Source: Candidatus Taylorbacteria bacterium RIFCSPLOWO2_12_FULL_43_20
GTDB lineage: Bacteria > Patescibacteriota > Minisyncoccia > Phycocordibacterales > HO2-43-120
Length of the DNA stretch: 44,032 nucleotides
Direction: 5' to 3'
NCBI GenBank assembly: GCA_001821295.1
Contig: MHSK01000014.1
Coordinates: forward strand, 1 to 44,032
Below, in pieces: positions 4,798 through 35,317 of this stretch (within the stretch, counting starts at the first letter, position 1; each line of letters begins with the position of its first letter). The translations under genes were made by a program, and so were the position numbers. A model generated the notes under the pieces. That model was not told where the DNA came from, ran no database searches, and worked only from the letters and a program-made list of their open reading frames with translations.

Positions 4798-4839
4798 GTT
4801 TTTGGGAACAGCTAGTGTTCGAACCCTACTTCAGGTAAC

Positions 4840-4873: not shown

Positions 4874-4948
4874 TGGCTCCCCGGGTAGGATTCGAACCTA
4901 CGACCAATCGCTTAACAGGCGACTGCGCTACCGCTGCGCCACCGGGGA
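4874..4948 (-). tRNA. tRNA-Asn (GTT), CCA encoded
   Basis: The cloverleaf folds completely on the - strand: acceptor TCCCCGG/CCGGGGA, D-stem GCGC/GCGC, anticodon loop CTGTTAA (anticodon GTT) and T-arm GTAGG-TTCGAAT-CCTAC. The discriminator is G (4877) and CCA is encoded at 4874-4876. Most other tRNAs in the window lack encoded CCA. Confidence 0.95.
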
Positions 4949-35039: not shown

Positions 35040-35105
35040 TTGTAAGAACAAAAGGTTGCGCCCCGGCGCATTTCGAAGACTCTATGCGTCGGGTAGGATT
35101 TGAAC
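35040..35105. repeat. Duplicate of the tRNA-Tyr 3' end
   Basis: 66 bases identical to 35189-35254. The copy contains the T-loop-to-acceptor 3' part of tRNA-Tyr and the downstream terminator. It lacks the rest of the tRNA. The 83 bases between copies include a hairpin ATTTTTTG/CAAAAAAT. Confidence 0.9.
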
Positions 35106-35194
35106 ATTACATGTTCAGTACCCCAATTGGATTTTTTGTTCGCTTTGCTCCAAAAAATCTCAATCGGGCTTCAAATCCTTGCTCCCTTTTGTAA

Positions 35195-35219
35195 GAACAA
35201 AAGGTTGCGCCCCGGCGCA
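35195..35219 (-). terminator. Terminator of tRNA-Tyr
   Basis: TGCGCC-CC-GGCGCA (35206-35219) followed on the - strand by ACCTTTTGTT. Confidence 0.7.
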
Positions 35220-35233
35220 TTTCGAAGACTCTA

Positions 35234-35317
35234 TGCGTCGGGTAGGATTTGAACCTACGTAGCCCATAGGGCGACAGATTTACAGTCTGTTGCGATTGAC
35301 CACTCCGCCACCGACGC
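35234..35317 (-). tRNA. tRNA-Tyr (GTA)
   Basis: Class II cloverleaf on the - strand: acceptor GCGTCGG/CCGACGC, anticodon loop CTGTAAA (GTA), long variable arm CGCCCTATGGGC, T-arm GTAGG-TTCAAAT-CCTAC, discriminator A, CCA not encoded. Confidence 0.95.

Follow-up and report, generated by a model that had tools for sequence, protein, structure and literature searches.

A candidate family of small non-coding elements at tRNA gene 3′ ends within a single patescibacterial order

The window analysed here, a stretch of 44,032 nt, is contig 14 of a draft genome of 1.0 Mb. It carries an intact tRNA-Tyr gene, and the 3′ end of this gene is found a second time further downstream. Sequence comparison confirmed what an earlier note on this DNA had reported, an exact direct repeat of 66 nt with 149 nt from start to start and 83 nt between the copies. 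Chance origin of a 66-nt exact repeat within 44 kb is ruled out. The repeat comprises the last 21 nt of the tRNA and 45 nt 3′ of the gene, so that it spans the tRNA 3′ end onward, again as had been noted. The features of the locus are collected in Table 1.

Table 1. Features of the tRNA-Tyr locus in the window.
Feature	Position	Strand	Basis
tRNA-Tyr (GTA), intact, host gene of the element	35234..35317	-	Rfam tRNA, 63.8 bits, and tRNA gene call
D1, functional tRNA 3′ end, T-loop to discriminator base	35234..35254	-	tRNA call and sequence
Proximal 66-nt repeat copy (D1 and 45 nt downstream)	35189..35254	-	sequence comparison
Short terminator-like GC hairpin	35206..35219	-	sequence
Acceptor complement, first 9 nt of this hairpin; pairs with the tRNA acceptor 3′ strand with one mismatch	35211..35219	-	read from sequence
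Small hairpin (hp) between acceptor complement and T-arm complement	35185..35204	-	fold prediction
I, inverted T-arm; complements T-loop and start of T-stem 3′ strand	35170..35180	-	sequence; R1 match
Core hairpin P2/P2b	35122..35168	-	fold; covariation in relatives
Outer stem of core, P2	35161..35168 with 35122..35129	-	fold
Inner stem and tip of core, P2b	35131..35158	-	fold
P3 hairpin, conserved TGTAA-like loop, ends in T-loop of D2	35102..35116	-	covariation in relatives; sequence
D2, displaced repeat of the tRNA 3′ end	35085..35105	-	sequence
Distal 66-nt copy (D2 and the same 45 nt as after D1)	35040..35105	-	sequence

On the tRNA strand the order of the elements is D1, a short hairpin, the inverted T-arm (I), a palindromic core, a second hairpin and D2, and the inverted T-arm copy sits inside the 83-nt spacer. 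As single-stranded DNA, the spacer with a few flanking bases has a fold z of -5.3, and 0 of 200 shuffles were equally good. In a sequence search of its own genome the 278-nt locus matched only itself; the spacer alone gave one further, weak match of 14 nt (E 0.99). The distal 66-nt copy reads as the beginning of a second unit that would be truncated. Similar truncated second units lie 3′ of D2 at the tRNA-Ile of another genome (G042, L007) and at the tRNA-Thr and tRNA-Gly of the window's genome. The earlier note had suggested that the 83 bases might be what an excised element left behind. This is not supported: the 83 bases make up the greater part of a structured element, of a type that is complete and widespread, rather than the scar of a lost one.

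Relatives of the element were collected by pattern and by covariance model. Among 84,980 species-level genomes searched, the exact core pattern gave 80 matches in 78 stretches; as these were chosen by exact pattern, conservation of their P2 stem is by construction. Where the title of a match gives a group, it is a lineage of Patescibacteria type (Paceibacterota, Parcubacteria, Taylor-, Kaiser-, Nomura-, Zambryski-, Lloyd- and Vogelbacteria and others), with one Gottesmanbacteria and one Elulimicrobium, the latter not placed; some say merely 'bacterium'. A covariance model built from 53 sequences (the core alignment holds 52 of 65 collected sequences plus the window) matched 141 of 297 genomes of the window's order, with at most 13 candidates scored per genome, so that copy numbers are lower bounds. 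Phylum-wide, 5 of 286 genomes matched, all five from the window's order. As far as searched, the family is limited to one patescibacterial order. The locus matched 126 of 148 genomes by BLAST, mostly via the tRNA; the core part was matched in as many as several places in a genome, and some of these lie next to other tRNAs. The unit is non-coding and roughly 110-170 nt long, and tandem units are present in the family. Some tails end in GGGGTCG...hairpin...GTGACC in place of the TACTG/P3 core and have the same inverted T-arm, for example at the tRNA-Val of the window's genome and the tRNA-Leu of G031; the arrangement is thus broader than the covariance model used. Contigs were seen to end at or beside tRNA genes or tails (G504:C13, G504:C20, G117:C66). 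The repeats of the element probably break assemblies and thereby lower the counts.

The core is bound closely to tRNA genes. Sixty-eight of the 80 exact core matches lie at most 300 nt downstream of a tRNA gene on the same strand; one more stands 513 nt downstream. For 5 the contig edge is reached, and for 6 no tRNA was found. Among the seven comprising the 513-nt match and the six without a tRNA, L102 and L115 have the same tRNA 3′ end just upstream, and ARAGORN calls no gene at either end. The upstream sequence of L102 looks like a group I intron within the tRNA, so that ARAGORN may have missed the gene. Rfam places group I introns elsewhere, in L099 and L109. With covariance model hits chosen irrespective of tRNAs, 30 of 37 were within 300 nt downstream of a same-strand tRNA, 2 were at contig edges and 5 lay elsewhere. 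Of these five, L162 and L164 look like tails with a lost tRNA, no explanation was found for L183, and L163 and L168, both from G044, have the core, but their arms resemble no tRNA and no tRNA gene lies close to them. From the last two it appears that the core may have targets besides tRNAs.

The converse surveys proceeded from the tRNAs. A displaced 3′ fragment in the same orientation was found downstream of 31 of 104 tRNAs, a set partly picked by BLAST hits, and in none of the upstream controls. When I or D2 was sought within 350 nt downstream, tRNA by tRNA, one or the other was present at 18 of 40 tRNAs in G041, 20 of 35 in G113, 12 of 23 in G504 (23 of its 29 tRNAs being counted), 18 of 39 in G031 and 14 of 37 in G108, that is, at 38-57%. 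Inverted arms upstream, as a control, numbered 0, 0, 0, 1 and 0 respectively. Of the 36 tRNA genes in the window's genome, 9 have I or D2; counted apart, I and D2 are each at 7 of 36 and I is upstream of none. Which tRNAs bear the element differs between neighbouring species. At 28 tRNA-Tyr loci, I was found in 15 and D2 in 14, and the cores differ. An identical, unvaried spacer in distant relatives, which the earlier note held would refute its reading, did not turn up: the spacer varies, and many tRNA-Tyr loci lack it. An encoded CCA was seen in 0 of 19 element-bearing versus 7 of 14 element-free tRNAs among loci L001-L030 (p 0.0008); in the other four sets the CCA difference did not reach significance (p 0.65, 0.25, 1.0 and 0.07).

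The arms of the element go with the tRNA, whereas its cores go with the genome. At 49 of 64 loci the inverted T-arm matches the tRNA beside it, compared with 8.5% of 3,892 pairs with other tRNAs. The acceptor complement does so at 25 of 64 loci (5.6% for other tRNAs) and D2 at 41 of 64 (1.6%). Core similarity between different tRNAs of one genome is 0.696, compared with 0.514 for all pairs, and 0 of 2,000 permutations were as high; for the same isoacceptor across genomes it is 0.550, below the within-genome value. The P3 hairpin behaves alike (0.760 within genomes, 0.647 for all pairs; 3 of 2,000 permutations). This pattern fits a spread among the tRNAs inside a genome, with the arms taken from the target. 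Gene conversion could be an alternative source of the within-genome similarity of the cores. In many D2 copies (L083-L160) the T-loop is, by eye, some two nucleotides (AT or AC) longer than in the tRNA, and the additional bases would bulge from an I:D2 helix.

A filled and an empty site could be compared at the base level at tRNA-Val (GAC) of G108 and G031, two genomes of the same genus. In G108 the tRNA is element-free and runs directly into its flank. In G031 the last 19 nt of the tRNA are present twice, with 111 nt separating the copies, and the distal one is followed directly by the flank orthologous to that of G108 (89% over 1,889 nt). The break point is the T-loop, with a 19-nt duplication of the tRNA end. 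This difference could also be import by homologous recombination. A case at tRNA-Cys is consistent, and older, its distal copy being decayed. tRNA-Val is the only clean base-level pair, the other pairs being too rearranged or diverged. Genus g41 (three genomes) had no clean filled/empty pair, and at the tRNA-Tyr locus itself G001, of the same genus as the window, is 72% identical in the neighbouring gene and too diverged for a base-level comparison.

The recurrent architecture, the concentration at tRNA 3′ ends, the tRNA-matched arms, the within-genome similarity of the cores and the one filled/empty site lead us to favour, with moderate confidence, the following reading: the tRNA-Tyr locus is one unit plus a truncated second unit of a family of non-coding tRNA elements that insert at the T-loop and are moved in trans. 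The tRNA gene would be cut in its T-loop, and the sequence downstream of the new junction would restore the full tRNA 3′ end as D1, which would be either brought in by the element or duplicated from the target. The old 3′ end would be pushed away as D2, as in tRNA-targeted islands. The palindromic core and inverted arm would be the structure that is recognised, probably in the form of a cruciform or of folded single-stranded DNA, and a recombinase or transposase acting in trans would do the moving. A bolder reading, to which we give a low probability, is that these are a mobile-element class of their own: gene-free cassettes of 110-170 nt that enter, as folded single strands, the T-loop of almost any tRNA, copy the target end into their arms, depend for their movement on a recombinase of the host, perhaps the lone Xer, and now stand at about half of the tRNA genes in some Patescibacteria.

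An unlikely alternative is that the tail is a structured RNA: transcription of the tRNA would continue through the tail, and pairing of I with D1 or D2 would control tRNA 3′ processing, stability or decay. By eye, I is exactly complementary to D1 at many loci, even where D2 is decayed, and, its acceptor part included, it often fits D1 better than D2, as functional RNA pairing would also predict. The helices covary strongly, with 187 cells changed on both sides compared with 70 +/- 6 after shuffling in one alignment, and 669 compared with 180 +/- 11 in a later test. Set A2 was fitted to its own model, and 78 loci, part of those collected, were taken into one step behind the recognition of the element type. 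The tRNA strand folds better than the opposite strand (z -5.35 versus -3.67), and the presence of the tail on so many tRNAs of the five surveyed genomes also speaks for an RNA. The test of strandedness by G-U and A-C pairs had a mixed outcome. The G-U:A-C counts in P1 (73:42) and P2 (26:9) lean to a single strand; those in P2b and P3 (15:12) are near balance, against 33:1 in the tRNA acceptor stems of the same contigs, a weak comparison because both sets were selected for pairing. Against an RNA stand the same tRNA having a tail in one species and none in the next, and the result with Rfam 15, in which nothing over the element exceeded the gathering score and only tRNA, rRNA and group I intron passed the cut-off; a known RNA family is thereby rejected. 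In addition, a hairpin followed by TTTT stands between the tRNA and I at 28 of 64 loci. Much of the element may thus lie past the tRNA terminator, which inclines us to a DNA element while the RNA alternative retains some weight.

Local events might also be proposed, in which sequence is duplicated in tandem or replication slips at hairpins and quasi-palindrome correction then copies the tRNA end in inverted form, with no true mobility. Direct repeats of the tRNA end and its downstream sequence, tandem arrays, truncated distal units and arms that remain matched to the local tRNA are all in keeping with such a process. Such a process alone, however, does not bring in a core common to genera and tRNAs, nor does it give a clean empty site, and we regard this explanation as improbable. 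In its plain form, a simple tandem duplication, which the earlier note had offered as its alternative, it is rejected, as it leaves the inverted arm, the core shared with other tRNAs and the empty site unexplained.

Returning to a T-loop-inserting element moved in trans, its enzyme was sought in 22 genomes, 12 of them element-rich and 10 without model hits in the order survey or its sample. A PF00589 protein is present in 21 of the 22, and so also in element-free genomes. The element-rich genomes have one such protein in 9 of 12 cases, two in 2 and none in 1, the last genome being 89% complete. In the window's genome the sole PF00589 protein scores best with XerD, XerC and XerA models (XerD 249 bits, cut-off 329.6; XerA_Arch 236 bits, cut-off 220); with integrase_gron it reaches 137 bits, below the cut-off of 265, and is not called IntI. 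Reverse transcriptase PF00078, present in 7 of 22 genomes, does not track the element. Y1 transposase genes were found in 9 of the 12 element-rich genomes, G031 being among those with none, and in 4 of the 10 that are element-free. No dedicated integrase or mobilising gene was found for the element in this survey. The earlier note had called the locus attachment-site-like and thought of a tyrosine recombinase. The outline is supported: the same arrangement recurs at many tRNAs, and in the one clean filled/empty pair the insertion is in the T-loop and the distal copy leads into the orthologous flank. A tyrosine recombinase would be a candidate at most; the element-rich genomes mostly have one PF00589 protein, Xer-like in the window's genome. 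That reading was right in kind, as to the attachment-site signature at a tRNA, and wrong in detail, as to the scar.

The element resembles integron cassette arrays and CALIN, as far as these are outlined in PMC8618304, in its structure-conserved folded site, tandem units and the lack of an evident cognate integrase nearby; unlike them, it targets the tRNA T-loop. By analogy, the host Xer might insert element circles at tRNA T-loops as a folded-cassette system, with which the folded palindromic site, the tandem units, the repeated T-loop junction sequence and the single PF00589 protein of most element-rich genomes would agree. The attC boxes have the consensus RYYYAAC ... GTTRRRY. These R boxes were found in 0 of 53 rows of alignment A1, and attC identity is rejected. 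There are also no cassette ORFs, the spacer holding no 80-aa ORF and the copies lying at most 329 nt from the tRNA; this, and the PF00589 proteins of element-free genomes, make such a system quite improbable.

A tRNA with its displaced 3′ fragment behind it, correctly oriented, would suit a conventional integrase-bearing island or prophage excised from tRNA-Tyr, yet such a remnant is very unlikely indeed and largely refuted, for the spacer is a recurrent element type and not a random residue, copies of a tRNA's own end lie at most 329 nt downstream in the searched stretches, which reach 20 kb (not counting weaker cross-matches to a tRNA next to it), and no gene-bearing long version was seen there, the one tyrosine recombinase of the window's genome is Xer-like, and no match was found in phages, plasmids or viral contigs, by which a phage or plasmid origin is rejected.

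The likeness to tRNA-targeted genomic islands is nonetheless one of arrangement, as outlined in PMC4383910: behind an intact tRNA comes a displaced 3′ fragment that is oriented like the gene, and the T loop is given there as one of three crossover subsites. Insertion into the tRNA gene is likewise seen here from the empty site, in the T-loop and at tRNA-Val only. The element differs from the islands in its size (100-170 nt versus at least 2 kb, PMC4383910), in having no integrase or genes and in bearing an inverted copy of the tRNA end. The Islander filters described in that source reject candidates that lack an integrase or are shorter than 2 kb, so that such elements would be missed.

Other small elements were also compared. 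REP/BIME palindromes, mobilised by the Y1 transposase RAYT, are short, intergenic, hairpin-forming and numerous in a genome. The element shares these traits, and RAYT-like genes exist in many of its host genomes; unlike REP/BIME, it stands at tRNA ends with tRNA-matched arms, and the palindromes read beside RAYT-like genes differ. At 20 RAYT-like Y1 loci, read by eye where the flanks were readable, no flanking palindrome like the element was seen. MITEs are small and non-autonomous, with inverted termini and flanking direct repeats. The element is of this description too, but its termini copy the target tRNA rather than being fixed transposon ends, and no parent element was found for it. It belongs to none of the described families tested, and in kind it is a tRNA-targeted insertion. 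The core pattern was not found in IMG/VR, and no description of the element was found in the PMC literature as judged by titles and abstract openings, bioRxiv preprints being outside this scope.

If the favoured reading is true, some 40-57% of the tRNA genes in several very small genomes bear a tail that island finders discard, a tRNA-targeting mobile element has shrunk to a hairpin with arms that are fitted to every new target, and the gene-less movement of so small an element becomes testable. If the tail is RNA instead, the control of tRNA genes in Patescibacteria would have a layer not described before.

Some further observations were made in the same genomes. At L275-L294, RAYT-like Y1 genes of about 170-250 aa were seen, many between copies of their own perfect palindromes; they form a separate short-palindrome system in the same order. 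At L247, 3′ of tRNA-Thr (TGT) of G108, about 435 nt are absent from G031 and hold, by eye, an apparent small ORF of HNH type. In the window, a lone inverted T-arm with one mismatch is present on the minus strand at 4817-4829, 48 nt after tRNA-Asn (4874-4948) and with no core; it is probably a decayed element.
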